64,000 nt of DNA from Methanolobus sediminis (GTDB lineage Archaea > Halobacteriota > Methanosarcinia > Methanosarcinales > Methanosarcinaceae): positions 186,001 to 250,000 of the forward strand of contig NZ_CP133592.1 in NCBI RefSeq assembly GCF_031312595.1. Reading direction: 5' to 3'. Every line of letters begins with the position of its first letter. The first letter of the stretch is position 1. Below, piece by piece: positions 31,274 to 51,394 of this stretch. Made by a program: the position numbers and the translations under genes. The notes under the pieces were generated by a model that was not told the origin of the DNA, did no database searches, and saw nothing but the letters and a program-made list of their open reading frames with translations.

Positions 31274-31689
31274 CCAAGTAATTGGTCAAGTTTGTTCTCA
31301 ACCTCTTCCACCACAGACCAATGTTCATTGTTCTTATTATCAACTTTCTTGCTCAGAGAATAATAGATCTTTTTACCTTTCCGCTCTCTTTCAAGCCACC
31401 CGGCCCTGTAAAGCTCATTAAGGTATTTGTTCTCTATTGAGCGATGTCTTCCTGTAATTTCGCTCACTTCATCTGCTGTGCATGAAGTCAACTTTGAAAC
31501 GGCGAACAATGATTTACGGATAGAATCAGGAACTGTCAGAAAAACAGCCATTTTATCATTGATTGCTGGAGAATTACGGGCTTCAAGATCTGCTATGCGT
31601 AATTCCAGTAACTTCAAATGCTCGTTTATATCATTAAGATATTCCAAAATCCCGTTATTGTTATGAAGGTCGGACATGATAATCAACAT
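31270..31689 (-). CDS. Winged-helix protein cotranslated with MinD/ParA
   Basis: The 139-residue protein has a short coiled coil at residues 12-42 (EYLNDINEHLKLLELRIADL). A winged helix at 50-115 follows, with VSKLTSCTADEVSEITGRHR, SIENKYLNELYRAGWLE and basic wing KGKKIYYSL, then an acidic tail. It overlaps the MinD gene by 4 bases, so the two make one unit. It could be a DNA-binding adaptor or regulator. ATG 31677 is an alternative start. Confidence 0.7.
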   Translation of the reverse strand: MLIIMSDLHNNNGILEYLNDINEHLKLLELRIADLEARNSPAINDKMAVFLTVPDSIRKSLFAVSKLTSCTADEVSEITGRHRSIENKYLNELYRAGWLERERKGKKIYYSLSKKVDNKNNEHWSVVEEVENKLDQLLG

Positions 31690-31840: not shown

Positions 31841-32527
31841 GTGGATGAAATGAGAAGCCCGTCATATATCACAAAGCTGGATGATCTTCTTTACGGGGGA
31901 TTAATCAAACCATCATCCATTCTGATCGCGGGTTCTTGTGGAACGGGTAAAACAAATCTCTGTATGCAATCGCTTTTCAATGCTGCCAGAGAAGGAGAAA
32001 AATGTGCTTACGTCTCACTACTTTCAGAATCAAAGGATAAGATATTAAGAGCAATATCTTCATTCTCATTTTATGATGAGAAACTTATAGGCAACAAACT
32101 GAAAGTTTTTTCGATAAATTCAGATGTTGTGGCTAAAGGTGATTTTGCTATCTTTGAATACATCAATGAGAATATCCTGAAGGACAAACCTTCCAGAGTT
32201 GTAATTGATACAATGAATATACTGGAAGACATAGAAAGTACTTTTGACGAACGCCCATTCCACAAATCTGAACTTCGTGCTTTTGTACAGAACCTACTCC
32301 AGGAGTTTGACGATAATAACATCCTCCTGATGGCCACAGGTGAAATCCCTGCTACAGATATCAATTCAAGTCAGTGGTCATACATCTTTGACACCGTAAT
32401 AGTACTTGATAAAGCAAATGGAGATGATAATAGCTACCGGTTCCTTGAGATAATCAAGGAAAGAGGAAGCGATTTCATCGCAGGGAAACATAAATTCAGC
32501 ATCACAAATGATGGAATTATTTTCTAG
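31841..32527 (+). CDS. KaiC/RecA-like ATPase, short form
   Basis: The 228-residue protein has Walker A SCGTGKTNLCMQSL near residue 32, the KaiC-type EKCAYVSLLSESKD segment, RVVIDTMNILEDIEST near 125 as Walker B, and LLMATGEIPATDINS near 170. The domain start TKLDDLLYGGLIKPSSILI is the usual KaiC opening (G-x-x-x-LD-x-LL-x-GG). This is one KaiC domain without a partner domain, as in ArlH-like archaellum ATPases. ArlH itself has additional conserved residues I cannot confirm. GTG 31841 or ATG 31850 starts it. Confidence 0.75.
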   Translation: MDEMRSPSYITKLDDLLYGGLIKPSSILIAGSCGTGKTNLCMQSLFNAAREGEKCAYVSLLSESKDKILRAISSFSFYDEKLIGNKLKVFSINSDVVAKGDFAIFEYINENILKDKPSRVVIDTMNILEDIESTFDERPFHKSELRAFVQNLLQEFDDNNILLMATGEIPATDINSSQWSYIFDTVIVLDKANGDDNSYRFLEIIKERGSDFIAGKHKFSITNDGIIF

Positions 32528-32554: not shown

Positions 32555-33136
32555 TCAAAGATAAATGGACAAATCATCCAGTTCACGCTGGCAATGATTC
32601 TTGATAATATTATTAAGTCTCATACGCACGGTTTTTATTCCTTCTTCACTTGTGAAATGTGAAAGCACATCTGAAAGCTGATCAACCATTAACTGATAGT
32701 CCCTTTCGGTACCCACATCCCTTAATTTTTGAATTGCAGACTCTGCAATCTCGGAGGTCCATTCCTCATTTGTATAATATATCTTATCTTCAACCTCGAG
32801 TTTTTTCCTTGCCACATCATTATTGACCCTGGCAAAAATAAGCTCCACAGTATGAGGATCACCAACAAATTCATTCATGAACTGCATGATATCCATAACA
32901 ACTTCAAAGTAAGGTATTTCCGGATTCTCAGAGTCCTTGAAAATCTGAGATAACTCCAGTTTTATATTCCTCTCGGATGGTTTTAGAAGATAACTGGCAA
33001 TATCATCAATAATAGCCGCACAATTACTTCCATCCATATTTGAGGAGAATTCGTATGTATTAGCCGGTAATACGTTAAACTTTCCGTAATATTTCAATAA
33101 ATTCTTACGTAAACGCTGGACATCTAAATTTGCCAA
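32555..33136 (-). CDS. Unrecognised 193-residue helical protein
   Basis: The protein is soluble and acidic, mostly predicted helix: NLDVQRLRKNLLKYYGKFNV, then VMDIMQFMNEFVGDPHTVEL, and DVLSHFTSEEGIKTVRMRLN at the end. The N-terminal 70 residues resemble an adaptor domain, but I recognise no family. It is the last gene of the long leftward archaellum-associated run, 20 bases after the GNAT, so probably part of it. Confidence 0.65.
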   Translation of the reverse strand: MANLDVQRLRKNLLKYYGKFNVLPANTYEFSSNMDGSNCAAIIDDIASYLLKPSERNIKLELSQIFKDSENPEIPYFEVVMDIMQFMNEFVGDPHTVELIFARVNNDVARKKLEVEDKIYYTNEEWTSEIAESAIQKLRDVGTERDYQLMVDQLSDVLSHFTSEEGIKTVRMRLNNIIKNHCQRELDDLSIYL

Positions 33137-33156
33137 AATACCACCTGAATTACTGA

Positions 33157-33921
33157 TTATTTTAAGTCTAATCCCCTGATAAAAGAATTCATCTCGCCTT
33201 CCAGTTTACTATCCAGAAGCTCCTTTGAACTTTCAAATAATGTTATAAAATCACTTATATCCTCTGAAGTGATGTTCTTTCCCATATTACGCCTGAACTT
33301 GAGTGCTTCGTAACTGCCAATAAGCTCAGGCATTACCATTCTGGGATAATCCCCCGCCATGGTTTTCAGAATGCTTCTCGCACGCGGGTATGGAAGCATC
33401 AGGTATCCTTTGTATCTTGGAGAAAGACCGCTACTTTTTGGATTAAGAGACGTAAAACCAAGTTTATCTTTAAAAAAACTTGCTGCACCTGAATTATCCG
33501 GCATTGTTATTACATTGGTCTTCAAGTGGTTTACAGAAATTGAAAAAAGCAGGCGACCTATCCCAACATGCCTGTGTGCCGGATGTATCTCAATACTTCT
33601 TAGCAAATGAATTGAATGATGAACTACATTGGTCTTTCCACGATAGGTTTTTTCAATTTCCTCGGATATTTGCTCAAACCTCGCAAAACCAAGTAACTTA
33701 TTGTTAGCTTTCACTGCAACAAACAATGAATGACCGGAACTTAAAGAGCTTTTGAGCAGGAAATCATATGGCATACCAAACTTGTTATGGAAATAATTAA
33801 AGCCAATATTAGAAGAATTTCCAATATCTATGTCAAGCTGATCCACCGATGAGCCTGCTTCAAGTATACCATAGCTGATGTTTCCTGCTACGTGTAGTAT
33901 TTTCATACCATCAATTGACAT
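33157..33921 (-). CDS. GNAT-type acetyltransferase in the archaellum-linked run
   Basis: Within the 254 residues, the acetyl-CoA site is plain at about 110-150: LLRSIEIHPAHRHVGIGRLL, then VITMPDNSGAASFFKDKLGF. The N-terminal half contains FVAVKANNKLLGFARFEQIS, the beta4 region of GNATs. The C-terminal 80 residues are additional and helical. Together with the second GNAT (40377) and two deacetylases (41253, 42329) in the same run, it suggests reversible lysine acetylation as an activity of this locus. It sits between a helical protein and the large coiled-coil protein. Confidence 0.75.
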   Translation of the reverse strand: MSIDGMKILHVAGNISYGILEAGSSVDQLDIDIGNSSNIGFNYFHNKFGMPYDFLLKSSLSSGHSLFVAVKANNKLLGFARFEQISEEIEKTYRGKTNVVHHSIHLLRSIEIHPAHRHVGIGRLLFSISVNHLKTNVITMPDNSGAASFFKDKLGFTSLNPKSSGLSPRYKGYLMLPYPRARSILKTMAGDYPRMVMPELIGSYEALKFRRNMGKNITSEDISDFITLFESSKELLDSKLEGEMNSFIRGLDLK

Positions 33922-33937
33922 TCTTAATCATCTGAGC

Positions 33938-36322
33938 TCAAACATTTACGGCCCCTGCAACCGAATAGAATGTGTATCTGCCTTTCTTGACAGTATCCAC
34001 CATCCGTTCCTGTTCTAAATAATCCATTACAAGAGATATCTTTTCAAAGTCTATAGGATAACCACTTGCCTGAATCTGTTTCTCCAGCTGTTTCAGGGTT
34101 GCTGACCCCGCAATCGAAAGCTGCCCGACTATCACTTCCTCTATAGGCATGTCTTTTAATCGTATGGGCTGTGGCTGTTCAGGAGCATCCTGTATGACTA
34201 TTTCAGCTTCCGATAAGGTTAATTCCATTTGATTTCCCAAAATCTCGTCAGGACTAAGATCCAAAGATTCAAGATCAAGAGGAACTTCTTCGGGAACAAC
34301 TTCAGATTCAAAAATAACTGGAACCTCATCAGGACTAAGATCCAAAGACTCAAGATCAAGAGGGACTTCTTCGGGAACAACTTCAGATTCAAAAATAACT
34401 GGAACCTCATCAGGACTAAGATCCAAAGACTCAAGATCAAGAGGAACTTCTTCGGGAACAACTTCAGATTCAAAAACAACTGGAACTTCATCAGGATTCA
34501 TATCCAAAGACTCAAAATCAAGAGGAACTTCTTCGGGAGTGACTTCAGAAGATTCAAAGTCAACTGGAACTTCATCAGGACTGAGATCCAAAGACTCGAG
34601 GTCAAGAGGAACTTCCTCGGGAGTGACATCCGCAAATTCAAAACCAACAGGTATACTTTCTGCTTCTGGAACCAGATCATTCTGATCAGGAGCAAAGTCC
34701 TCAAGATTCAACGGCTCTGGAGAAATTTCAGCTGTTTCAGCCGGCATTGGTGATTGGTCTGCAAACATCTGATCAGGTTCAGAAATGACTTCTACTGGCT
34801 CTGGCAAGAACTCTTCCTGTTCTAATTGACCTGCCTGGACATTTATATCAGGAGATTCTTCAGAGAAAGCACCTTCATTCACATTATCTTGCAGAGAAGT
34901 ATCATTTTCCTGTACAATTTGCTCTGGATAATCATGGATAAAAGATTCCCCATATCCCGGAATATGAATCTGGAGCTGCTCCTGCAGGGAATTGAACATT
35001 CCACCTACAACAACCTTAAAAGATTCTATTTCCCCGGCTATTGCCATTATTTCTTCTTTGCTTGCATTTGAAGCTTCACTTTCCTGCTCAGAAACTGAGG
35101 AACCTGAAAAGATTTCACTTTCCTTTCCTGTAGCAGATGTAACAAGTTCTGAAGAATTTAACTCTTTAAGTGTACGGTTCAGCTTGGTTATTGCTTTAGT
35201 ATGCAGATTTACAGCCTTTGCAATGCTTTTCATCTGTTCTTTAATATCTTCGAGCTGCTGAGTATTGGAAGCACTTTCTTCAAGCTGGTTATTCTGAAGT
35301 TCTGCGATAAAGGTTACATTTTCAGTTAGATTATCCAGCTCACCCTTGTGCTCAGTGAGATCTGAAACTATCTTTTCAAGGTGCTTTTCGTGAGAAACTA
35401 CTTTTTCAATTGTATATTCCCGGCTTCCGGTCTCTACAAAGGAACGGAAGTCCTGGGAGTTATAATTAGGAACATACTGGAATAGCATTTTGAACAGTTC
35501 CACATAGGTTCCATGTATCTGCTTAACAGAAACTATTTTGGAAGCAATCGCATCAGAGAGCCCTCTGACTACAAATGTTTCGTTCTCGAAACTGAAAAAG
35601 TCAACACCTGCACTGAATTCACGAACCTGATCCCTGGCAGTTTCCACCATATCAGCAGATTCACGGTCACCATAAATGGAAATCATGGCACCATAAAGAT
35701 CATTCAGGGTCTTTGCATAAGTTATTTCCAGAACATCAGGAGGGACTTTAGTAGGGTCCAGTGTTTCTGCATTTACAGAATCCTCTGCCTGAACTACACG
35801 TTTAAGTCTCTTGGAAAATAGATCGAAGTCCTGCCTTAGTTGCTTATAATCAGATTCATGCACTTTAGAATAAAGATCATTCTCTAAAGTGGATAACTTA
35901 TCACCGCTTGATTCAAGTTTTTCTGACATCTTTTTCTGCATGTCATTGAACTTTTCTTCAAATAGGAATAAACGAGTTTCAAGCTCATTATAACGAGTTT
36001 CAGCATCTTCAAGCCTTGTAATTAGTTCGGAGTTCGCAAGTTCGGAATCGGATTCAAGACCTGAAGCACTGTTATCCAAAATATTTGCACTATTGCCTAT
36101 TTCATTATTTGTTTTACTTGTCTGCTTCAAGTTTTCATTTGTAACATCTTCAACATCAGCTTTGGAATCTTCCACGTACCCTGTGACATCAGTATCCTGT
36201 TCATCTTCGCCAGGCTCCATGGAATAATCTTGTGATCCGGTTTGTGAAACTTCATTATCCATACTTTCATGATTTATCATTTCAGTCTCACATTTTTCCA
36301 GTGTGCATATTTCGTTATCCAT
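33938..36322 (-). CDS. Large coiled-coil, acidic-repeat and winged-helix scaffold protein
   Basis: This 794-residue scaffold has an acidic disordered N-terminus (1-100), a coiled coil at about 105-180 (RLEDAETRYNELETRLFLFE), and a globular domain at 190-320 (ITYAKTLNDLYGAMISIYGD). A second coiled coil spans about 320-410. A Glu/Pro-rich low-complexity part leads to five tandem repeats of about 27 residues (VPLDLESLDLSPDEVP plus variable EV/ES), lying at DNA 34250-34640 with an 81-base period. A C-terminal winged helix follows at 720-790 (LSIAGSATLKQLEKQIQASG, MVDTVKKGRYTFYS). It links the roadblock-like gene and the GNAT. It probably assembles a large complex. The repeats imply recent slippage expansion. 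Confidence 0.75.
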   Translation of the reverse strand: MDNEICTLEKCETEMINHESMDNEVSQTGSQDYSMEPGEDEQDTDVTGYVEDSKADVEDVTNENLKQTSKTNNEIGNSANILDNSASGLESDSELANSELITRLEDAETRYNELETRLFLFEEKFNDMQKKMSEKLESSGDKLSTLENDLYSKVHESDYKQLRQDFDLFSKRLKRVVQAEDSVNAETLDPTKVPPDVLEITYAKTLNDLYGAMISIYGDRESADMVETARDQVREFSAGVDFFSFENETFVVRGLSDAIASKIVSVKQIHGTYVELFKMLFQYVPNYNSQDFRSFVETGSREYTIEKVVSHEKHLEKIVSDLTEHKGELDNLTENVTFIAELQNNQLEESASNTQQLEDIKEQMKSIAKAVNLHTKAITKLNRTLKELNSSELVTSATGKESEIFSGSSVSEQESEASNASKEEIMAIAGEIESFKVVVGGMFNSLQEQLQIHIPGYGESFIHDYPEQIVQENDTSLQDNVNEGAFSEESPDINVQAGQLEQEEFLPEPVEVISEPDQMFADQSPMPAETAEISPEPLNLEDFAPDQNDLVPEAESIPVGFEFADVTPEEVPLDLESLDLSPDEVPVDFESSEVTPEEVPLDFESLDMNPDEVPVVFESEVVPEEVPLDLESLDLSPDEVPVIFESEVVPEEVPLDLESLDLSPDEVPVIFESEVVPEEVPLDLESLDLSPDEILGNQMELTLSEAEIVIQDAPEQPQPIRLKDMPIEEVIVGQLSIAGSATLKQLEKQIQASGYPIDFEKISLVMDYLEQERMVDTVKKGRYTFYSVAGAVNV
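34250..34640. repeat. In-frame 81-base tandem repeat, about five units
   Basis: The unit AGATCAAGAGGAACTTCTTC and onward recurs at 34272, 34353, 34434 and 34515 with exact 81-base spacing. A fifth, more diverged unit starts at about 34599 after a 3-base insertion. The first three are nearly identical. It lies wholly inside the scaffold gene and encodes the acidic 27-residue repeats. Confidence 0.85.
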
Positions 36323-36335
36323 AGCAACTCACCTT

Positions 36336-37106
36336 TCACACGAAGGACTCAAGTTTGTGAGTAATATCCGGTATCCATTCGGCTTCGCATACATCTGCCA
36401 CATAGTCACCATGCAGAGGCCGTATCTGATCATTGATTATCATTTCAAGAAGCAGTGGCCAAAGATCTTCTGTCATCCATTTGGGTGATGATGCAATTTC
36501 ATTGAAAGCCATAGCAAGTACCTGCTCAACTTCACCTCTGCCCATGACACTTGTGATCTTTTCCTTGATATCAGCAAGTATCTCCATATTCTTCTTATAC
36601 TCGGAAGACTGGGTGTACATCTCATCAAATACTATCTTTGCCAATATACGCAATTCATTAGCCACTTCTTCCGGATAAGTTGCCAGTTGTTCCTTGGACA
36701 TTGGACGCTGCTCAAAAACATGCTGAATTACAGCCTTAGCGACATCTATCTTATCCATGTTCCCCGCAAGATCTGCTTTTCCGGTAAACAGGGAAATCAA
36801 AAGTGCTCCGCGTCCTACGGAAGAGAAAATTACCGTACCAAACTCATATTCAATAACAGATTGCTTAAGTCCCATGGCAAGCTGCTGGCTTACATGCAGC
36901 AGATTGTTGCTGATCAGATTTGTCAGCTCAAAAATTTTATGGCCAATACTATCAGGTATGTAGGATGCATATATCCTTCCGTCCGCACCGGCAAACAAAA
37001 GTACATCCACATCACTGGATTGGTGTGTCCTTTTAAGCTGTGCGACCAGAGCGAACTTCAGAAGGGAAACATCCTCAAGGTCATCCTTTGTTTTTTTAAC
37101 TGACAC
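36336..37106 (-). CDS. Roadblock/LC7-like domain protein
   Basis: Within the 256 residues, 30-125 look like a roadblock/LC7 fold: VDVLLFAGADGRIYASYIPD, IFELTNLISNNLLHVSQQLA, EFGTVIFSSVGRGALLISLF. Such MglB-like domains regulate small GTPases or polarity. The C-terminal half is helical, with a long amphipathic segment (KKNMEILADIKEKITSVMGR). It is 13 bases from the scaffold gene and 18 from the KaiC gene. No small GTPase gene is nearby, so a KaiC partner is more likely (inference). Confidence 0.65.
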   Translation of the reverse strand: MSVKKTKDDLEDVSLLKFALVAQLKRTHQSSDVDVLLFAGADGRIYASYIPDSIGHKIFELTNLISNNLLHVSQQLAMGLKQSVIEYEFGTVIFSSVGRGALLISLFTGKADLAGNMDKIDVAKAVIQHVFEQRPMSKEQLATYPEEVANELRILAKIVFDEMYTQSSEYKKNMEILADIKEKITSVMGRGEVEQVLAMAFNEIASSPKWMTEDLWPLLLEMIINDQIRPLHGDYVADVCEAEWIPDITHKLESFV

Positions 37107-37124
37107 GTCAATCCACCTCTTACC

Positions 37125-38213
37125 TTAACGGATAAGCTCTTCCAGCTCACTCAGACTGTCTATTTCAATAAGACTTTCTTCATCCGAATCAAATGCCTCT
37201 TCCTGGAAGTCAGGCATGACAACGTTATCATCAACCTGAAGTGTACCTCCTGAAAGTTCAGCAATATCAAGCTGAGACTGCGGAGAGCTTGCTTCTATTT
37301 TTTTTCTTTTTTCAAGCTCTTCTTTTGTTACTGCATCATTAAGACCCTGAGATTCGAAGAATATCTGGAGTGTCTCCTTTGGAGAGAACGGATATGACCA
37401 ATTCTCTTTGACATATACCAGGCGCTCAAGCATTCTCTCACTGGCACCAATGTCAGCGGCTGTCCTGATAGCTTTGTCAAAGACATCATCATACTTGTGT
37501 ATGTCTTCAGCTGATATGAGTGGAGTAGTTCTTACAACAACACCTACACCACGAACAAATATGTATGGATAGACTTCCTCACCATGTCTTGTTGCACGCA
37601 TCTTGACTATCTCAAGTGCCCTGTTAAATGCTCCACCAATAGGCCTGTATGTCAGGTGTACTGCACCGTCTGACATGTAGATAGGAATCAGCACATCCTC
37701 TCCAATGGTCTCACCTGGTGCTGCGTGTTCTTCTGTAGTGATAAGAACAGGACCAAGCTGCTTTAGTGTATAGAACAGTTTTGTGATGATCTCACGCTGC
37801 TCCTGTTTATCCTGTATCGCCCAAATAAGCGGAGTCAAAGGATCGATTATCACACGCGTCTTTACAGCATAATTCTTATTTGCTTCCACAAGGGCCGGAA
37901 GCTGCTCGTCTACGAGTTTGACGAAATCCTTTCCTTTTGAATGGAAGAAGAATAATTCTTTTTCATAATACTTATCAAGGTTAAATCCAAGCATCTTTGC
38001 TTCACGCATGATCTGCTCAGGTGGTTCTTCCATACTGATGTAGAGACCGTTCTCTCCATGCTCAAGACCATAATTCAGATACTGCATTGCAAAGGTTGAT
38101 TTTCCGGTACCACTGGAACCTACGACCAGAAGGGTGGACTTATCGCGTACACCACCTTCAATTACTCTGTCAAGACCTGCAATTCCGGTTGGTATTCGTG
38201 TTTCGCTGCTCAT
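37125..38213 (-). CDS. KaiC-domain ATPase
   Basis: In this 362-residue protein the KaiC domain starts RIPTGIAGLDRVIEGGVRDK, with Walker A VVGSSGTGKSTFAMQYL (residues 31-47). The catalytic pair lies in YISMEEPPEQIMREAKMLGF, and Walker B near 125-132 reads RVIIDPLTPLIWAI. The C-terminal 110 residues are acidic and contain DIAELSGGTLQVDDNVVMPD, ending in an acidic EESLIEIDSLSELEELIR that looks like an interaction tail. Such single-domain KaiC ATPases act in signalling in archaea, often with roadblock proteins. It overlaps the Sm-like gene by 4 bases (ATGA). Confidence 0.85.
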   Translation of the reverse strand: MSSETRIPTGIAGLDRVIEGGVRDKSTLLVVGSSGTGKSTFAMQYLNYGLEHGENGLYISMEEPPEQIMREAKMLGFNLDKYYEKELFFFHSKGKDFVKLVDEQLPALVEANKNYAVKTRVIIDPLTPLIWAIQDKQEQREIITKLFYTLKQLGPVLITTEEHAAPGETIGEDVLIPIYMSDGAVHLTYRPIGGAFNRALEIVKMRATRHGEEVYPYIFVRGVGVVVRTTPLISAEDIHKYDDVFDKAIRTAADIGASERMLERLVYVKENWSYPFSPKETLQIFFESQGLNDAVTKEELEKRKKIEASSPQSQLDIAELSGGTLQVDDNVVMPDFQEEAFDSDEESLIEIDSLSELEELIR

Positions 38214-38629
38214 TTAAATTCCTCCGGAAGTACTACTTCATCAAGGCTGTATAATTCACTAATATTTGTAATCTCAATATTTTCTGTAATTCTATCCAGT
38301 CCTTCAATAGCTGGTTGAGAATCTGAAAGCTCAGACCCATGCTTAATTGAAAGAATGAGCGATTCATTGCTGTCAAAAGGAAAGCTCTTTTCAACATAGA
38401 CCGACTCGATTGAGTGACCCATGACCAGCATATAATCACTAACTTCTACCCATCCGGTTTCATTTTTCTTAACAACATTTCTCAGAAGTACATTGTTATT
38501 TTCCCGGTCTATCTTTTCACATTCACCTCTGTAATGTGAACTATTTGTTATCACCCTCACATTCTCACCTACGAATTCATCCAGATGAGTATAGGACGAA
38601 ACTGATCTGTAACCTGCCATGATAATCAC
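38210..38629 (-). CDS. Sm/SH3-like small-barrel protein
   Basis: In this 139-residue protein, residues 12-60 read LDEFVGENVRVITNSSHYRG, then GECEKIDRENNNVLLRNVVK, an Sm-like or SH3-type barrel start as in LSM proteins. VSDYMLVMGHSIESVYVEKS ends the barrel. An acidic C-terminal tail follows, ending EVVLPEEFK. The barrel could bind RNA or protein. It overlaps both neighbours by 4 bases (ATGA), so it is part of a tightly coupled set with the V4R and KaiC genes. Confidence 0.55.
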   Translation of the reverse strand: MIIMAGYRSVSSYTHLDEFVGENVRVITNSSHYRGECEKIDRENNNVLLRNVVKKNETGWVEVSDYMLVMGHSIESVYVEKSFPFDSNESLILSIKHGSELSDSQPAIEGLDRITENIEITNISELYSLDEVVLPEEFK

Positions 38630-39543
38630 TGCTGATCCTTCTTCATTTTAGCAAGAAGCTCGGCAAAGCTATCCGTCTTTTTAGCTTCTTCCTGTAATTT
38701 TGCTGTTTCCTCAGACACAGCTGGTGCAGCTGCAGCCGGAGCAGAATTGTCTGGTACCTGTATCTTCTGGGCCATTGCACCAAAAGCACCGCCAAAAGTA
38801 CTATGTGATTCAGCTATGGAAGAAAGTTCTTCCTGAAGCTTCCATGGAGGATCAAACACCTTCTCCTGTACCGGCATGCTGTTGGCAAACTGCATGTAAG
38901 CGTTACCAATTTCAGACAGACGACCGCTGTCAAGTAATTTGTAAATCGTAAGTATCCTTACCCTGTCCCTGAGCTCATTATCATCAACAGGTGGCCTGAT
39001 ACCGGATAATATTTTTTTATCATACTCATCCAGCATGACCTGATATGCGGATATAGGCTGGAGGTCTACCTTGAATTTACAATATGGATCTCCATTCTTG
39101 ATGCACTCGGTTTCCTCAACAGAGCATTCAAGTTCTAGGTCTTCCCTGAAGAACCTGTGCAGAGCATCAGTTGTAGCTACACAAACCTTCTGGTTCTGCA
39201 GTGCCGGATAAAAATTGCATACGGGATTGTTTGGAACTGCAAATATATAGTGCATTGGTGCATACGAGATCAGTTGCATGTTTCCAAGACCAATATCCTT
39301 GAAGAATTTCATATGGAACTTGTAAAGCGATGTTGCTCTTATCTGGTCTATTGTGCTTGCTTTAAGGAATTTCCTCGTTTCATTCCAGGGAACCTTAGCT
39401 TTTGGGAACCTGTCACTGATGTTCTGCTGGAGTTTCAGTAGTGCTCCAAAAGCTCCCATGGACTGTCCAAAACTACCATCCATTGCCGGAGGCGGTCCAC
39501 CGGCCGAATTAGTCATAAAAGGAGGGAGACCAGGATCTGCCAC
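38626..39543 (-). CDS. V4R-domain sensor-like protein
   Basis: The 305-residue protein has a Gly/Pro N-terminus, then the V4R (4-vinyl reductase) small-molecule-binding fold at about 50-180, with YKFHMKFFKDIGLGNMQLIS, CVATTDALHRFFREDLELEC and CIKNGDPYCKFKVDL. The C-terminal region is helical and ends in a Lys-rich KMKKDQQ. V4R domains bind hydrocarbons or heme-related ligands and commonly act as sensors. The cysteine-rich segment near residues 150-176 may add metal binding. It is coupled to the Sm-like gene. Confidence 0.75.
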   Translation of the reverse strand: MADPGLPPFMTNSAGGPPPAMDGSFGQSMGAFGALLKLQQNISDRFPKAKVPWNETRKFLKASTIDQIRATSLYKFHMKFFKDIGLGNMQLISYAPMHYIFAVPNNPVCNFYPALQNQKVCVATTDALHRFFREDLELECSVEETECIKNGDPYCKFKVDLQPISAYQVMLDEYDKKILSGIRPPVDDNELRDRVRILTIYKLLDSGRLSEIGNAYMQFANSMPVQEKVFDPPWKLQEELSSIAESHSTFGGAFGAMAQKIQVPDNSAPAAAAPAVSEETAKLQEEAKKTDSFAELLAKMKKDQQ

Positions 39544-39577
39544 TTATAATTCCCCCTCTGTAATGATTAGAATCATT

Positions 39578-40165
39578 TCACATCATCTCCTTGATCTGCT
39601 TTAGACCCTGTTCAGTAAGCTTTCCTGAAGTGTCACACATGTTTGCTTCCCTCAGATTCTTAAAACTGGATGCAAGCGTGTCATTATCGACACCGATGAA
39701 GAAGGTCAGTTTCTGCAAATCATTCACACCGGTGAAAAGCATGTAAAGGAGCTTTTTATCAACATCAGAAAGGGATTGTTTCTTTGGAGGTGTGCCACAC
39801 ATTGGTTGCAGATAAGCCTTGAGCGTATTGATCACTGCTTCATTACCTGCAAGTAAAGCAGTAGCTGTAGCTGTGGCTCCTTCTACAACAGATGATGGCT
39901 GGAGATAATCTAGCAAAAGGACGTGTGAAGTCCCGATTGTGCGTTGAGCCTTTGCACGAATTGGATCCGATACTTCCCTGCCTACCATGGTAACACTTTT
40001 CAGGGGAATTGTTAACCATCCTCCACCTTCTGAGAACCAAAGGTTTAGATTGGTAAGATAGAGAACACCTTTCTCCCAATTGTCAGAGTAAAGAGAATTA
40101 CCCATCATCACTGCTTTATAAATATAACTAAGATCAACTTTTGCGATACCCTGCTCTTGAGCCAT
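39578..40165 (-). CDS. CheF-like adaptor protein
   Basis: In this 195-residue protein, N-terminal residues 30-130 form a PH-like beta domain: EKGVLYLTNLNLWFSEGGGW, TIPLKSVTMVGREVSD and LLAGNEAVINTLKAYL. The C-terminus is a winged helix: LSDVDKKLLYMLFTGVNDLQ, NDTLASSFKNLREANM, KLTEQGLKQIKEMM. The order matches archaeal CheF (DUF439), which links CheY to the archaellum motor. The match is by pattern, so another PH/wHTH adaptor is possible. It opens the second leftward operon with its own promoter. Confidence 0.65.
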   Translation of the reverse strand: MAQEQGIAKVDLSYIYKAVMMGNSLYSDNWEKGVLYLTNLNLWFSEGGGWLTIPLKSVTMVGREVSDPIRAKAQRTIGTSHVLLLDYLQPSSVVEGATATATALLAGNEAVINTLKAYLQPMCGTPPKKQSLSDVDKKLLYMLFTGVNDLQKLTFFIGVDNDTLASSFKNLREANMCDTSGKLTEQGLKQIKEMM

Positions 40166-40376
40166 AATAAAAAGACCCCATACAAATAAATTATATATCT
40201 AGTATTATAATTATGGATATTATTGTATTGACTGTATTAATACCCTTCTGTTGAATGGAGGAAATTAGCAACTTTTGCACTTATGAGACAAAATACCATT
40301 TTGATAATGAATGTAAAAATACTACTAATAATAACAATAATAACCAAAAAGTAAATACAAGTAAAGAAATGTCCAT

Positions 40377-41237
40377 TTACTTTTTCTTCATCGGAAGGAA
40401 ATACCTTTCAACATTGCAATTTGCACATATAAAAGCTGTACCGCTTCTTTTGCCTGTGACCATATATTTGTTCACCAGATAATTTCCACATTTACACGGA
40501 GACATCATTTTTTGCTCTCCAAGGAACTTACCTTCAAAGTCCACAGGACTTGGGGTGTCCTCAGGAAGTTGTTCAGCAGAAATATGAGTAGTCATATGCT
40601 CAGGACTGCCTGCAGAAGAATCTGAATCTGAGACTTCAGGTTCCTTTTTCATATTAATAAGGGAGCCAGAAACCGCCTCCTTTGGGAAAAGTTTGAGCCT
40701 GCAAGCTTTTACACCACTTTCATTGGGAATGATCCCCTCACATGTTATTGTCTTCTTTCTACTTTCCTCAAGTATCAGATAACCAGGATAATTTCCCAGA
40801 TCTACAGGACTCTTGTATGTTGATTCTGCAAAATCCAGTGACTCAAAGAACAGTTTTGCGATCTTGTTCACAGGTTTTGTAATAATATGTCCTACAAGTA
40901 TTCCTGAAATAAAGCAGAATATCTTTTTTCCCATACCAGTCCTGGCCAGCTTTGGTGATACTTCTATACCACGGAGGACAAACGTTGGCCTTCCATCACT
41001 TGCAGGAGAGCTCCATTTCTCATTCATGGACCAGCCAAGCACAGTATTGTCTTTTACAGCAACCACAAGAACTACAGTTGGCCTTTTAAGCCAGCTCTGG
41101 AAATTTGACAGGTAATCAGACATGCCAAGATATTTCCTGAAATAAGTGAATTCACCTATTGTCAACTTGTCCAGCTCAAAAGCATGTTCAAGTTTATAAA
41201 ACGTAATACCATCTTCACTTTTTCCAAGTTCGAACAT
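40377..41237 (-). CDS. GNAT-like protein with C-terminal zinc ribbon
   Basis: In this 286-residue protein, residues about 50-160 form a GNAT domain: VLVVAVKDNTVLGWSMNEKW, then VLRGIEVSPKLARTGMGKKI (CoA loop) and ITKPVNKIAKLFFESLDF. The extra C-terminal part holds CKCGNYLVNKYMV and ICANCNVERYF, a four-cysteine zinc ribbon. It lies directly next to two deacetylase genes on the same strand, so this acetyltransferase and those deacetylases are probably cotranscribed. The zinc ribbon may target it to a protein or nucleic-acid partner. Confidence 0.75.
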   Translation of the reverse strand: MFELGKSEDGITFYKLEHAFELDKLTIGEFTYFRKYLGMSDYLSNFQSWLKRPTVVLVVAVKDNTVLGWSMNEKWSSPASDGRPTFVLRGIEVSPKLARTGMGKKIFCFISGILVGHIITKPVNKIAKLFFESLDFAESTYKSPVDLGNYPGYLILEESRKKTITCEGIIPNESGVKACRLKLFPKEAVSGSLINMKKEPEVSDSDSSAGSPEHMTTHISAEQLPEDTPSPVDFEGKFLGEQKMMSPCKCGNYLVNKYMVTGKRSGTAFICANCNVERYFLPMKKK

Positions 41238-41252
41238 TTAACCAACTACCCC

Positions 41253-42329
41253 TTAACTACGATCCCATGGACCCCAATATGGCTCAAGCCTTGTTTTCAG
41301 AAGAGACAGATTATTATTAAACTCTTTTCTGGTTTTAACATGCCTTGATGCAAGCAGATCAATCTGATCAACCTCATCCCCAATATTCTCAATTCCTGCC
41401 AGTGCTCGCAGGACAACAGATGCGAGAAGACCAAGATCATCATGATAACCGCCTTCAAGCAAGGTTACAACGCTCCATTTACTTGCAAGTTTAAATATCA
41501 TTCTATAGTACCCATCAATAGTCAGATTCAATTTTGCCAGTGGCTCTTTGTGATAAGCATCGAAACCACATTCAAGAATAACTAACTGTGGATCAAACTT
41601 GTCAAGCACTTTTTCCGCGACTTCATCATAAAATAAGGAATATTCGGGATTGCCTGATTCAGTAGGCATTTCCATGTTTATACAGTATCCGAGTGCGGGC
41701 CTGACACCAATATCCCTGATGAAACCCTTAAACGGGTAAAGTGTTTTCTGATTCTGGTGTATCGATATACATAATACCTGCTGATCCGCTTCAAAAGCAG
41801 AATATGTACCATCCGAAGCGTGTGCATCAATATTGACAATTGCAATCCTTTCAAGTCCTTTTACTTCTTGCATATAACGGGCCAGAATTCCTGAATTGTT
41901 GAACAGGCAAAAGCCATTACATGAATCTGGGCCTGCATGATGACCCGGAGGACGTATTATCGCGTAAGAATGTTTGCATTCACCTGTTGCCACCAGCTCC
42001 CCGGCTTTCAGAACACATCCTAATGCCTGGAGGACCACATCAAAAGAAGAAGGACAAACATATACATCCTTACCAGGGCTTTGACGTGGATCTCTGGTGC
42101 AGGCCTTTATGAGGTCTACATACTCTCCCGTATGCACCCGCAAAATGTCCCTCATAGATGCCGGAGAAGCATCATAGAAATGGAATTTATCATCATCAAT
42201 AAGACCGCTGTTCTCAAGATATTCAAGTATATTCTTGATCCTCAAAGGATTTTCAGGACAGGGGTAGCCATTCAATAATGAATCATGCAAATAATGATTT
42301 TTATTGAAAGTGATACCTACCCGGGTCAT
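41253..42329 (-). CDS. Histone-deacetylase-fold amidohydrolase 2
   Basis: This 358-residue class-II HDAC/acetylpolyamine amidohydrolase fold has RPPGHHAGPDSCNGFCLFNN with His130-His131 (the catalytic pair), NIDAHASDGT with zinc ligands Asp168 and His170, and LVILECGFDAYHKEPLAKLN with the third Asp. EGGYHD near residue 306 completes the active site. All catalytic residues are kept. The substrate could be acetyl-lysine or acetylpolyamine. The start ATG at 42329 overlaps the stop of the preceding deacetylase (TGATG). Confidence 0.88.
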   Translation of the reverse strand: MTRVGITFNKNHYLHDSLLNGYPCPENPLRIKNILEYLENSGLIDDDKFHFYDASPASMRDILRVHTGEYVDLIKACTRDPRQSPGKDVYVCPSSFDVVLQALGCVLKAGELVATGECKHSYAIIRPPGHHAGPDSCNGFCLFNNSGILARYMQEVKGLERIAIVNIDAHASDGTYSAFEADQQVLCISIHQNQKTLYPFKGFIRDIGVRPALGYCINMEMPTESGNPEYSLFYDEVAEKVLDKFDPQLVILECGFDAYHKEPLAKLNLTIDGYYRMIFKLASKWSVVTLLEGGYHDDLGLLASVVLRALAGIENIGDEVDQIDLLASRHVKTRKEFNNNLSLLKTRLEPYWGPWDRS

Positions 42330-44347
42330 CAGGACTCCTCTGATAATAGAACAGGGTGATTGCTTTTTGTTTCAGCAACCTTTTTCTGCGTCTCTGCAAA
42401 TATCTGTTTTTGTTGGTTCTGCTTAAAGCTAGATATTTCCTGTTTATCCTGAACCGGATTGGGACGTCCGTGGAGAGAACTTAATACACTATGACATAGC
42501 TGCCCATTAAAATCATGATAGCCACCTTCAAGCAGGAAAACAATAGGCCCCTTAAACACTGAATGCAATTTTGCGGTCATCTGGTGATAAGCATCTGAAT
42601 CCAGTGCCAGCCCGATATTCATTTCATGATAATGGGCATCAAAACCACAGCTAAGTACTACAAAATCAGGATTGAAATGCTCTATCATAGGAATAACTGC
42701 TTCATCAAAAGCATACATATACTCATCATTACTTGATCCTGCAGGCATTTCTATATTCATTGTGTATCCTTTACCTGCATTCTCACCGGTTTCATTGCTG
42801 AAACCCTTTCTTGGATAGAAACCATGAGGATCACGGTGAAGAGATATCAGCATCACAGAAGGGTCTTCATAGAATATTTCCATGGTACCGTCACCTGCAT
42901 GAGCATCCCAGTCAAGGATCAATACCTTACCAACCTTCCTGTTATGCTGAAGATGTCTTGCAAGCACTGCTGCATTATTAAAAAGACAGAAACCTCCGTA
43001 TTTCTCAGAACTTGCATGATGTCCCGGAGGTCGTGTCAGGACAAAAGCATGGGTAAACTTACCATCAACAAGCAGATCTCCAGCTTGCATAGCTGCCCCC
43101 ACTGCTGTTTTTGCGATATCGTACGAACCTGATGTCATATACGTACTGTCACCTAAAAATCCTCCACCTGAACCTGAATATGATTTTACGAAAGAAACAT
43201 ATTCTTTACCATGAACCCTGTACAGATCCTCTTCTTTAGCAGTCTGGAAATCACTGATCAATGTGCATGTACCATCAGTAAAAACCTTGTTCTTTTCCAG
43301 ATACCACATGGCCTTGATTATACGCTCCGGTTTCTCATGAGTAATAATCGAAAGTAATGAAGCATCATGCTTCATATGATCCTCATTGTAAAGGAATGCA
43401 ATATTCACAGGAGAAGCCGGTTCATCTGAAATTTTCTTTTTTACTGCAACAGTTGGCTTTGGAGCATCAGTCGTTACCGGAGGAACTACTTTCGGAGTTG
43501 CGGGTTTAGGAGTAACTTTAGCGGGCTTCGTTGATGCAGCTTTTACAGAAGAAACAGGAGCATGCTTTCCTGCACTTACATCAGCCCTGGCCATCGAAGG
43601 AGTTGGAACTTTAGCTGCAACAGTTCCAGTTTGTGCTTTAGTCGGTGCAACCGATGGCGCTTCAGGCACAGAATCGGCTACATAATTCTGTGCAATCGGT
43701 TTTTGCATAGTCTTTGCTGGTTGCGGAGGTATTTCCTTTTTTGGAATGGATACCTGTTGAAGAGACTTTGCCTCAGTAGACTGCTTACTGGTGGTTTGTG
43801 AAACTTGTGAGTGTGCATTAACAGTTTCAGAGCCTTCAGAATGCTGATAAGAAGAAATTTTAGGAACTTTTGGGGTCTTTTGAAGAATATCAGACACAGC
43901 TTTTGAGTAATCTTTTTCTTCATCCTTTACAGTACTTTTCTCGTCATCCGTTTCAATTTCAACAGACTGATAAGATACATCATCAAAAGCACCTGACAGG
44001 ACATCAGGAACATTTACTTCAAAAGAAGGAAATGTTGCAGATGGCTCAATTTCCATATCCTGATCATCAGAATAAGTTATAGTCTCATCCCCTGCCTCAA
44101 TAAAGCCTTCACCGATGACAATCATTTTTTTGCCCTCGGTAACCTTGTCCGAATCGCTGGCATCTTCATCTACAGCACCAGATTTTATAAGATTAAGAAT
44201 GGCATCTTTTTCTGAAAGGTCAATTGTACTTTTACCAGGCTTATTCCCATCAAAATGAGAGAGAAATGCCTCGTTCAGCTTTTTCATAACGTCAGAAGAC
44301 AAATGTTTATCTGATTCACCGTTTTTTTCTGCATCTGAAGACACCAT
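42329..44347 (-). CDS. Histone-deacetylase-fold enzyme with long disordered N-terminus
   Basis: The protein is 672 residues from ATG 44347. Residues 1-300 are acidic, then Pro/Ala/Lys/Thr-rich (KVTPKPATPKVVPPVTT), with no fold seen. The HDAC domain runs from about 310 to 650: TRPPGHHASSEKYGGFCLFN, LDWDAHAGDGTMEIF and VLSCGFDAHYHEMN, with LLEGGYHDFNG. The catalytic residues are kept. Start 44347 is preferred because GGGTGAT precedes it. A longer frame would overlap the lipoprotein gene. The long linker is unusual for archaeal HDAC-fold enzymes and may tether it to the scaffold complex. Confidence 0.85.
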   Translation of the reverse strand: MVSSDAEKNGESDKHLSSDVMKKLNEAFLSHFDGNKPGKSTIDLSEKDAILNLIKSGAVDEDASDSDKVTEGKKMIVIGEGFIEAGDETITYSDDQDMEIEPSATFPSFEVNVPDVLSGAFDDVSYQSVEIETDDEKSTVKDEEKDYSKAVSDILQKTPKVPKISSYQHSEGSETVNAHSQVSQTTSKQSTEAKSLQQVSIPKKEIPPQPAKTMQKPIAQNYVADSVPEAPSVAPTKAQTGTVAAKVPTPSMARADVSAGKHAPVSSVKAASTKPAKVTPKPATPKVVPPVTTDAPKPTVAVKKKISDEPASPVNIAFLYNEDHMKHDASLLSIITHEKPERIIKAMWYLEKNKVFTDGTCTLISDFQTAKEEDLYRVHGKEYVSFVKSYSGSGGGFLGDSTYMTSGSYDIAKTAVGAAMQAGDLLVDGKFTHAFVLTRPPGHHASSEKYGGFCLFNNAAVLARHLQHNRKVGKVLILDWDAHAGDGTMEIFYEDPSVMLISLHRDPHGFYPRKGFSNETGENAGKGYTMNIEMPAGSSNDEYMYAFDEAVIPMIEHFNPDFVVLSCGFDAHYHEMNIGLALDSDAYHQMTAKLHSVFKGPIVFLLEGGYHDFNGQLCHSVLSSLHGRPNPVQDKQEISSFKQNQQKQIFAETQKKVAETKSNHPVLLSEES

Positions 44348-44373
44348 ATCACCCACATATAGATAGCTGTAAA

Positions 44374-45309
44374 TCACTGAACCTGCAACCACACTGAATC
44401 AAGCACACCCATATACTTCGTTCCACCATAATTGAATACTACTGTTGGATCTTCAATGGAAGCCCAGCCCGAAAGCTTTGGTTTCACTACCCAAGTCCTC
44501 TTTACAGTTTCTCCAGGAGCTATTGTATCAAAGAACAGATTGATCTTTTCAGGCTCAAGGGTATTTGCGAACTTACCTTTGATAGCAAAATCGTGATATG
44601 GCTGCTGTGTAAAATTCTTAACCCACACATCTATGGTAGCTGTTTTCCCTATGGTGATCTGCTGTGAAGGAACAAATTTTACATATTGTGCAATGGATTC
44701 CTTCTGTATCGGAGTTGCACCAGAAACATCAATAATTCTGCTGTTCTCCTTTTTCCTGGCTTTATCTTTCTTATCAATGTAAAGACCGAGGCCGAGCATA
44801 ATCACAGCAGCAATAAATATCAGTGGAGCATTATTTGCAATAACATCGATTTTTGTAGTCTCCATCTCGATATTTACTTCGTCTACATTATCAAGTGTTA
44901 ATGGAACTGTGAATGACACTCTTGTAATGATCCATCCCAGCTGACTATTCTGGAGAATAAAATATATAGGAATAGTGCTGTTTTGGCCATCAGGGCTTAA
45001 CACTGTACATTCCACATCAACAACAGCAGCCGATCCATTAATTTCCTGAGAAACAATATTTATATTCTGGATCGTACCAGGTTCAATTCCTTTATTGCTG
45101 AATATCATTTCAATACTTGCAACCGCAAGGAAATCCTTACCTGTGTACATATTAAAGGCAGTATTAAAATCATCATCATTAATAGCAGTCAAAAATGTGG
45201 TCACTATTTCAGGTACTTCTTCTTCGGGGTCACTACTGACACAACCACTACTATACACACTTAACAGGATAACAAATACCAAAATAACTGAACAATACTT
45301 GTGTTTCAT
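44374..45309 (-). CDS. Lipoprotein with NTF2-like and Ig-like parts and one internal helix
   Basis: The 311-residue protein has a signal with lipobox-like SVYSSGCVSSDP (Cys23). An outer domain with IVTTFLTAINDDDFNTAFNM and DVECTVLSPDGQNS suggests an NTF2-like stress or ligand fold. A membrane helix at about 158-180 (IFIAAVIMLGLGLYIDKKDK) precedes a cytoplasmic or second domain with ATIDVWVKNFTQQPYHDFAI, an Ig-like beta sandwich. The topology places one domain on each side of the membrane. It is next to the deacetylase gene and probably cotranscribed, so it could be the membrane input of the system. Confidence 0.65.
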   Translation of the reverse strand: MKHKYCSVILVFVILLSVYSSGCVSSDPEEEVPEIVTTFLTAINDDDFNTAFNMYTGKDFLAVASIEMIFSNKGIEPGTIQNINIVSQEINGSAAVVDVECTVLSPDGQNSTIPIYFILQNSQLGWIITRVSFTVPLTLDNVDEVNIEMETTKIDVIANNAPLIFIAAVIMLGLGLYIDKKDKARKKENSRIIDVSGATPIQKESIAQYVKFVPSQQITIGKTATIDVWVKNFTQQPYHDFAIKGKFANTLEPEKINLFFDTIAPGETVKRTWVVKPKLSGWASIEDPTVVFNYGGTKYMGVLDSVWLQVQ

Positions 45310-45427
45310 TTAAGCACCTGAGATGATCAAATATTATTATTAAGCTATTATAATATAGGCATAGTACTTAATTTTATTTGTGCTAATTGTATATATTGCG
45401 CGTTAGAAAAATGAATAAAGATGAAAA

Positions 45428-46108
45428 TTAGAATAAAGAAGGAAAACGAGAGAAATCTGCAATAAATCTTGATTTGCCCGTTTCAATCATTACAGCATAC
45501 TCAAATGCCTGGCGATCATCAACAATAAATGAACGAATACCGCTACGCCCTTCGATCAACTGCCGTCCGGAATCACAGGATGTATGAAGTTCATCAATGC
45601 CATCTATATCAGTTATTATCATTTCAGAAGGCAGAGAAATACTCATCTTTTCAATTGCAGGATGTCCTAGAACCCATAAGCTATGTTTTCCACTTTCCAG
45701 TGATTCAGGCACACCATATACAATATTAACTGTGACCTTTATTTCAGAAGTGCTTACATTGCCTCTTGCACCGGAAACATTCATATTAAAGGAATCAAGA
45801 GAAAGTACGGCATTCCCACCATCTATTAAAACATAACTTAAGTATTGGCCTGTACAGTTCCTTTTGAATTCATCTACAAAATTTTCAACTTCATCCTCAC
45901 TTACGATACTATTATTGTCAGCATCAAGACTCAATCTGAAGGCTTCAGCATCAGTTCCGGTATACACTTCATTAATCGTGAAATCAATAGAAGTATCATA
46001 AAACTGCAACCCATTTGTAAAAATAGCATCTGCAGAGGATAAAGGAATAAATGATAAAATAATAATCAAAGATATTAACAGACTTTTTTTTGACATGAAA
46101 TCCCTCAA
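45428..46108 (-). CDS. Secreted protein with an EF-hand-like calcium loop
   Basis: The 226-residue protein has a signal peptide at about 6-26 (LLISLIIILSFIPLSSADA). Residues 62-73 carry DADNNSIVSEDE, an EF-hand-type calcium loop. A beta-rich region follows with an Asn-x-Ser/Thr site in MNVSGARGNVS. No C-terminal anchor is present. Its family is not recognised. It is the first leftward gene after the archaellins and is separated from them by a terminator, so it may be transcribed separately. Confidence 0.65.
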   Translation of the reverse strand: MRDFMSKKSLLISLIIILSFIPLSSADAIFTNGLQFYDTSIDFTINEVYTGTDAEAFRLSLDADNNSIVSEDEVENFVDEFKRNCTGQYLSYVLIDGGNAVLSLDSFNMNVSGARGNVSTSEIKVTVNIVYGVPESLESGKHSLWVLGHPAIEKMSISLPSEMIITDIDGIDELHTSCDSGRQLIEGRSGIRSFIVDDRQAFEYAVMIETGKSRFIADFSRFPSLF

Positions 46109-46140
46109 AAAAGTAAAGGTGAATATTATTATTTCACCTT
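46105..46140 (-). terminator. Terminator of the first archaellin pair
   Basis: AAGGTGAA (46116-46123) pairs with TTCACCTT (46133-46140) at the end of the second archaellin gene. The minus strand then reads CTTTACTTTTTTGAGGG. Confidence 0.6.
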
Positions 46141-46915
46141 ATGGATATAATTGTATCGTTTCTCTGGTACCATATGATGAAGGTGTTATAAATTCAGCCT
46201 TTGTAGTAGCTCCAGCCTCAGGAGTCATAACTATTGATACAGCCGACCGTGGTGCAACATCCAGATTGGAATCTTTCTGATTACTATTGGTTGTTACCCC
46301 ATCTATTGTTGTATATGAAAGATCACCATCTGCTACTACTGATATATAGATTGTCACCAGATCACCTGTATTCATGATAGGGTTGCCCTGTGAAAATGAA
46401 ATGTCTTCATCCCTTATTTTCTGCACAGTAAAGAAGTATCTAGCATTTGCACCTGGTGTAGCCTGAGTACCTGTCAACAAATGACCTAAGTTTGCACTTG
46501 CATTGTTAGATGAAGAGAAATTTGCCATCAAACTACCATAGGTTTTATCGTTATTTCCATAAATAAGGTCATTCGTGTTAGTACTATCAGTTATTGTGAT
46601 TATTAACTGATTAAGATCTACAGGAGAACTTCCAACATTAAGACCCACTTTTACTTTTAGAAGTGATATATTAGAAGCCATTGTTGAACTTGTTTTTGCA
46701 CGAACTCCCTCTATACTTTTAATGATAAGATTTGATGACACTTCCTGAGTAGCCTGTTTTCCGGTAGATTGAGCTTGCTGTTGAAGTGTGCCCGATGTCT
46801 GAATGAGCACAGATGCAGCTACAGCAGCAATCAATACCATGGCTATGAAAATAATTAGAGTACCAATACCTACCTGAGCAGTATTGCTCCTCGAAAAGAG
46901 ATTTGAATTAGGCAC
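46139..46915 (-). CDS. arlB: Archaellin B of pair 1
   Basis: The 258-residue type-IV-pilin-like archaellum filament protein has a class-III signal with processing before QVGIGTLIIFIAMVLIAAVA, then QTSGTLQQQAQSTGKQATQE as in all archaellins, and a C-terminal beta domain ending TIQLYP. The GTG start at 46915 follows GAGGGGGGTC. It lies 58 bases downstream of archaellin A and is diverged from it in the surface-exposed half, so it probably makes a minor or specialised filament subunit. The numbering arlB1/B2 is not assigned. Confidence 0.9.
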   Translation of the reverse strand: MPNSNLFSRSNTAQVGIGTLIIFIAMVLIAAVAASVLIQTSGTLQQQAQSTGKQATQEVSSNLIIKSIEGVRAKTSSTMASNISLLKVKVGLNVGSSPVDLNQLIITITDSTNTNDLIYGNNDKTYGSLMANFSSSNNASANLGHLLTGTQATPGANARYFFTVQKIRDEDISFSQGNPIMNTGDLVTIYISVVADGDLSYTTIDGVTTNSNQKDSNLDVAPRSAVSIVMTPEAGATTKAEFITPSSYGTRETIQLYP

Positions 46916-46973: not shown

Positions 46974-47777
46974 TTACGGATACAGCTGAACAGTCTCAGT
47001 CACACCGTATGAAGATGGCAGTACGAAATCTGCTGTTGTCGCTGCACCAGATTCAGGAGTCAGAACAATATTCACAGTTGTCCTTGGAACAAGAGTGAGT
47101 CCTGAACTTTTAAGGGTGCTTAAACCAGTAATGTCGCCTACATTAGGATAAGTAGTACCCTGTGAAGCAGAAGATGTAGTAGCAATATACAAAGTGATAA
47201 GGTCACCAGTATTCATTACGGGGTTTGCTTGAGAGAATGAGGAATCTTCATCACGGATCTTTTCTACAGTATAATAGTATTCTGAATTATTACCTACCGT
47301 ACTGGTCGCACTAAGAAGCTTTTCAAGATTTGCAGTAGCATTAGTATCTGAGAAAGCGCTCATGTTACCATCAGAAGCACCGGTTGATGCATAGGACTTT
47401 TCATTGCCTGCATAGACAAGGTTGTTAGCTGTTGTACCATCACTAATAGAAACGACTACCTGATTTACATCCACAGAAGCACTACCTACATTAAGACCGA
47501 CCTTAAGCTTAAGAAGGTCAATTGTGTCTGACATGTCGGTTGAAGTGTTCTTAGCACGTACTCCCTCAATGGTTTTTACCATGAGGTTAGATGATACTTC
47601 CTGTGTTGCCTGCTTACCGGTTGACTGAGCTTTCTGCTGAAGTGTACCGGAAGTCTGAATCAATACAGCAGCAGCAACTGCTGCTACTAGAACCATAGCG
47701 ATGAATATGATAAGAGTACCAATACCCACCTGAGCTCTGGTATTATTTTTCAAATGTAATGCGTTGTTTGCTTTCAT
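46974..47777 (-). CDS. arlB: Archaellin A of pair 1
   Basis: The 267-residue archaellin begins MKANNALHLKNNTRAQVGIG. The prepilin site precedes QVGIGTLIIF, the hydrophobic assembly helix follows, then the beta domain ends ETVQLYP. The predicted protein is identical to the archaellin at 50518-51321. Its DNA is identical over about 516 bases (47275-47790) including the ribosome site GGAGGATCGTAC. It is first in its pair and so likely the major filament subunit. Confidence 0.93.
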   Translation of the reverse strand: MKANNALHLKNNTRAQVGIGTLIIFIAMVLVAAVAAAVLIQTSGTLQQKAQSTGKQATQEVSSNLMVKTIEGVRAKNTSTDMSDTIDLLKLKVGLNVGSASVDVNQVVVSISDGTTANNLVYAGNEKSYASTGASDGNMSAFSDTNATANLEKLLSATSTVGNNSEYYYTVEKIRDEDSSFSQANPVMNTGDLITLYIATTSSASQGTTYPNVGDITGLSTLKSSGLTLVPRTTVNIVLTPESGAATTADFVLPSSYGVTETVQLYP

Positions 47778-51321: not shown

Positions 51322-51394
51322 GTACGATCCTCCTCTTATATCCATTTATTTTTGGATATGTCACTAATATAGTAATGAATAATATAAATACCAT

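Follow-up and report, generated by a model that had tools for sequence, protein, structure and literature searches.

A conserved cluster of KaiC, CheF-like, deacetylase and acetyltransferase genes accompanies CheF-less chemotaxis in archaellated Methanosarcinaceae

The window analysed here, a stretch of 64,000 nucleotides from the 2.8-Mb genome of Methanolobus sediminis, contains a run of thirteen leftward genes (p1 to p13, positions 32555-46108, minus strand), all of them present as open reading frames and directly adjoining two archaellin genes on the same strand (46139..46915 and 46974..47777, both Pfam Arch_flagellin). Nearest to the archaellins are p13 (45428..46108), which encodes a secreted protein with a conserved EF-hand/dockerin-like loop, and p12 (44374..45309), which encodes a lipoprotein with an invariant lipobox Gly-Cys, a transmembrane segment and an Ig-like C-terminus. 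They are followed by genes for two HDAC-fold proteins, p11 (HDAC a, 42329..44392) and p10 (HDAC b, 41253..42329), the zinc-ribbon acetyltransferase p9 (GNATb, 40377..41237), the CheF relative p8 (39578..40165), the V4R-domain protein p7 (38626..39543), the small Sm-like protein p6 (38210..38629), the KaiC-family ATPase p5 (37125..38213), the roadblock/MglB-like protein p4 (36336..37106), the large scaffold p3 (33938..36322), a second acetyltransferase, p2 (GNATa, 33157..33921), and p1 (32555..33136), a 193-aa helical protein with one invariant Cys and no convincing relative in the PDB. A preliminary description of this DNA had noted coupling of several genes by 4-base overlaps; these are confined to p5/p6 and p6/p7, while p10 and p11 share 1 base and p11 and p12 overlap by 19 bases. 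A 211-base gap ahead of p8 divides the run into p11-p9 and p8-p1, and an Rfam scan of 29.5-52.5 kb found no RNA element. The cluster is flanked on the p1 side by KaiC2 (31841..32527, plus strand), a winged-helix protein (31270..31689, minus) and a MinD/ParA-like ATPase (30539..31273, minus). On the archaellin side, the translations of the archaellins at 46974-47777 and 50518-51345 differ only where they begin, and the membrane genes at 47936-48727 and 51482-52285 are related to each other, a pattern suggesting that a segment with an archaellin and a membrane-protein gene was duplicated.

The gene order is kept beside archaellins in all 20 Methanolobus loci fetched, the exceptions being single-gene losses, e.g., of p1, which is absent from part of the genus. 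Apart from lost genes, this arrangement recurs in Methanomethylovorans, Methanosalsum, Methanohalobium and a further genus; it thus holds across five genera, and conservation of this extent excludes chance. The most conserved marker, p4, was detected in 37 of 112 Methanosarcinaceae genomes (5 of 14 genera), and its profile, run against a sample of 393 genomes from across the phylum, matched nothing beyond the family, so that a broad archaeal system was rejected at the sensitivity of the p4 profile. Since p11 and p9 were found in 31 of the 31 loci scored for each, while p10 has been lost in several genera, p2 is absent in Methanosalsum and p1 is dropped in places, one HDAC and the zinc-ribbon GNAT form the minimal pair. 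Individual loci show further variation: the spacing between p8 and p9 is about 1.9 kb in one genome (L021:8160-10063) and about 0.2 kb elsewhere, p10 is truncated in a Methanomethylovorans MAG (L047:5367-5836), and G026 has a deletion of p8 and a p7 that lacks its start (L026:11988-12205). The MAG labelled Methanococcoides sp. EBM-47 (L048) is apparently a Methanomethylovorans (g11), judging from agreeing contig coordinates.

The thirteen genes had initially been taken as one system, a view that stands for p1-p11 and has to be given up for p12 and p13. In the 99%-complete Methanolobus genome G016, the archaellins, p13 and p12 are kept and p11-p1 are gone from the locus, together with KaiC2 and MinD, only scraps of the winged-helix gene being left. 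Similarly, Methanococcoides keeps archaellin and p12 and has no cluster. As p12 and p13 remain with the archaellins where the cluster is lost, we assign them to an archaellin module and redraw the signalling unit as p1-p11.

The company that this unit keeps was established by a census of p4, ArlDE, CheF, CheW and CheA across the 112 Methanosarcinaceae genomes. All 37 genomes with an own-type CheA also carry the cluster and none has that CheA alone; the converse, a cluster without own-type CheA, occurs once, in a 72%-complete MAG. The archaellated genomes number 61: CheW is accompanied by the cluster in 38 of them and by a true CheF in five, and both CheW and cluster are missing from the other 18, whereas the cluster together with a true CheF, and CheW with neither cluster nor CheF, were each found in 0 of 61; these counts share ancestry and are not phylogenetically independent, the tree forcing only three to four events. 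In this scoring, G110 and G016, with one weak CheW match each, were treated as CheW-negative, and the 70%-complete G009, in which p4 was not found, was treated as cluster-positive because the HDAC pair and p8 are present. Mapped on a 30-genome AlaRS tree, the cluster label requires four changes, three of them forced by well-supported branches. G016, which has lost CheA and all but that one weak CheW match while keeping its archaellins, branches within Methanolobus, i.e., its loss took place inside the genus.

The preliminary description had linked the cluster to motility through the neighbouring archaellins. The link to motility is strongly supported, and it withstood the refutation that was proposed there, since relatives do keep the gene order next to archaellins; but the partner is chemotaxis, and archaellins alone do not predict the cluster; the observation is stronger than first stated for that reason. 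Methanosarcina, with a related CheA, has neither the cluster nor an archaellum of this type; the cluster thus tracks chemotaxis and archaellum combined and neither part alone. In one Methanosalsum genome (G073), the ArlDE and archaellin genes form one contiguous stretch with the cluster and a complete che operon (MCP-CheW-CheY-CheB-CheA-CheC-CheR-CheD), and there is no CheF. The che operon of M. sediminis itself carries a gene for a PilM/FtsA-like actin-family protein between cheC and cheR (L064:5523-7643). Since cluster and CheF are mutually exclusive and one of them is always present in archaellated chemotactic genomes, we read the role of the cluster as replacement of CheF.

One of the cluster proteins is itself related to CheF (PF04283, DUF439), the adaptor between CheY-P and ArlCDE. 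That p8 is CheF-like, as first proposed, is borne out by profile homology, although its Pfam match is weak (2e-3; 18.4 bits, below the cut-off of 25). In hhalign, residues 8-190 of p8 align with residues 87-259 of the 266 of the Methanosarcina/Methanococcoides CheF at an E value of 6.7e-10 (unrelated controls gave values above 0.1), and the C-terminal part matches the CheF crystal sequence weakly (E 0.055). The homology covers the PH2 domain and the C-terminal domain, whereas PH1 is missing, p8 starting at about CheF residue 87, and the dimerisation strand is short by a few residues. CheF itself binds CheY-P through its C-terminal domain, its PH domains presumably facing ArlCDE (PMC9126983). 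p8 resembles CheF further in that it occurs only with che and archaellum genes, but its gene sits in the KaiC/HDAC cluster and usually not beside cheY. We rejected p8 as a plain CheF orthologue, both because PH1 is missing and because KaiC-linked paralogues of about 400 aa are as close to it or closer; these two points and the shortened strand also count against p8 being an adaptor.

These paralogues outside the cluster apparently belong to a separate signalling module. In 10 of 23 loci a CheF-like gene stands directly before a KaiC gene (L129-L131, L133-L138 and L142, with CheF-like proteins of 290-550 aa), and at least five of these ten sit just after a receiver-domain gene. A second class of CheF-like proteins, of about 420-500 aa, has no KaiC gene alongside (L139-L141 and L143-L151). 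With hindsight, this arrangement suggests that certain CheF-like proteins link receiver proteins with KaiC ATPases.

Within the cluster, the KaiC ATPase is p5 (Pfam PF06745, E 5e-47), whose Walker A, Walker B and catalytic EE pair are intact and 97-100% conserved at key residues in 37 sequences, in contrast to the neighbouring KaiC2, which has no EE pair. It is not a circadian KaiC proper, having one domain and scoring 80.8 bits against 546 for circ_KaiC. Makarova and colleagues reportedly described archaeal KaiC-like signalling hubs in 2017; like such hubs (CirA, ArlH), p5 is a single-domain ATPase with intact catalytic residues amid sensor and adaptor domains, but it stands apart from them by its association with enzymes of the HDAC and GNAT types, with a CheF relative and with chemotaxis. 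The N-terminal fold of p4 is that of the MglB/roadblock polarity proteins (PDB profile 9jue, E 2e-4; Foldseek against MglB, E 5e-6). Unlike MglB systems, p4 has an additional, unique and conserved helical C-terminal half, and the cluster contains no MglA-type GTPase. The V4R protein p7 (Pfam V4R, E 9e-8) has five invariant Cys, and its nearest named relative is MsvR, a methanogen regulator whose DNA binding is redox-sensitive (PMC3729527); a redox input is therefore possible. Apart from this partial MsvR-like match and a generic KaiC assignment, NCBIfam names no member of the cluster. The Sm-like barrel seen earlier in p6 is matched weakly (LSM14, 8e-4). The description of p3 as a repeat/winged-helix scaffold fits its variable acidic repeats, and winged helix describes the look of its conserved C-terminal stretch; the protein has an acidic N-terminus, a conserved helical core and a coiled coil of about 100 residues, and in relatives it is 480 to 1018 aa long, a spread due in part to in-frame acidic repeats. 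A fold search with the core gave no match (best E 0.18) and sequence searches gave coiled-coil matches only, so we claim no family for it.

The KaiC ATPase, the MglB-like roadblock, the winged-helix part and the flanking MinD-like genes could also belong to a CirA-, MinD- or MglB-like hub that governs expression, polar placement or assembly of archaella and chemosensory arrays and not the switching of rotation, particularly as in Haloferax both motility and cell shape are influenced by the KaiC-like protein CirA (PMC13286277). We consider this unlikely: the complementarity with CheF and the presence of a CheF-type protein point to a signalling output, and KaiC2, which flanks the cluster in Methanolobus and Methanomethylovorans, could, like MinD, not be detected at the cluster loci of three genera.

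Of the enzymes, both HDAC-fold proteins are confirmed (Pfam E 1e-76 and 1e-86), p11 having a long variable N-terminus before its HDAC domain, and their active sites are complete as described: the Asp/His/Asp zinc ligands, the His pair and the Tyr are invariant in 32 p11 and 27 p10 sequences. Their best PDB relatives are HDAC6, and both resemble class IIb lysine deacetylases. At the position that we take to be the gatekeeper, placed by hand against the HDAC6 and HDAC10 sequences, p10 has Leu in 26 of 27 sequences and Ile in one, and p11 has Asn, His, Asp or Thr across 32 sequences; the Glu gatekeeper of HDAC10 and polyamine deacetylases is absent from both. The two GNATs stand as well: p2, with an invariant R-x-x-G-x-G motif, by Pfam, and p9, which matched no Pfam GNAT model, by profile comparison with p2 (E 1e-20). 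The motif of p9 has Arg at -2 and not the canonical Q/R at -3, and the four Cys of its C-terminal zinc ribbon are invariant in 32 orthologues. With one HDAC and the zinc-ribbon GNAT kept in every locus with coverage, and no Glu gatekeeper in either HDAC, a motility or signalling protein may be the substrate of reversible acetylation. Many prokaryotic HDAC-fold enzymes are amidohydrolases, and some of these are found among the PDB relatives of p10 and p11, as would be expected if the HDAC and GNAT genes were metabolic hitch-hikers acting on small molecules such as acetylpolyamines, in an incidental neighbourhood. With gene order kept across five genera, HDAC6 as the best PDB relatives, a gatekeeper that is never Glu, and no relative of either HDAC left in the genome of G016, where che is also lost, this seems very improbable.

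In a narrower form of the preliminary proposal, the enzymes would belong to the archaellum and would modify archaellins or the motor proteins themselves, adding and removing acetyl groups. The cluster does adjoin archaellins in the loci with coverage, and the intact HDAC active sites and the lysine-deacetylase relatives lacking the polyamine Glu gatekeeper would suit such a role. Yet not one of the 18 genomes that have archaella but no chemotaxis contains the cluster, G016 has lost it and still has its archaellins, p12 and p13, and archaellins are extracellular, whereas the GNATs and HDAC domains look cytoplasmic as read from sequence. We regard an archaellum target as decidedly improbable.

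Taken as a whole, we think it reasonably probable that p1-p11 form an alternative chemotaxis output adaptor that couples a CheF-less Che system to the archaellum motor. Which proteins touch, which way the signal runs and what is acetylated we infer as follows. The Che system served would be of the bacterial type, without CheF. CheY-P generated by CheA would bind the C-terminal domain of p8, which would relay the signal to an assembly of the KaiC p5, the roadblock p4, the Sm-like p6, the V4R protein p7 and the scaffold p3, and the ArlCDE switch would be the target of this assembly. The enzymes p9 (GNAT) and p11 (HDAC), a pair often doubled by p2 and p10, may reversibly acetylate a lysine of a relay protein or of CheY, and so set the sensitivity or adaptation of the response. 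By analogy, acetylation is plausible as a regulatory step: lysine acetylation of E. coli CheY tunes chemotaxis output (PMC8556138), a precedent for acetylation acting at this point, although the proteins involved in E. coli are acetyl-CoA synthetase and the sirtuin CobB, and those here would be class IIb HDACs and dedicated GNATs. Against the adaptor reading, the che operon lies far from the cluster in M. sediminis and other Methanolobus, the complete genome G026 keeps cluster and CheA in spite of the absence of p8, and Methanosarcina has a related CheA and no cluster. More tentatively, as a possibility that we would rate below the adaptor itself, a KaiC/roadblock complex with a minimal CheF may replace CheF while an HDAC6-like deacetylase and a GNAT control acetylation of a relay protein, making this an acetylation-gated form of archaeal chemotaxis.

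Our searches of open-access literature brought up no account of this cluster. Schlesner et al. (2009) reported that CheF is strictly tied to archaeal che genes, with the exception of the Methanosarcina che2 regions, and raised the question of how cells lacking CheF might control their motility (PMC2666748). Five genera are archaellated and chemotactic without a detectable true CheF, and as all of them have the cluster, this question becomes directly testable in cultured Methanolobus. A KaiC-like archaeal protein, p5, also gains a concrete predicted pathway, and the suggested rule, in which a receiver protein would act through a CheF-like adaptor on a KaiC ATPase, recurs elsewhere in these genomes.
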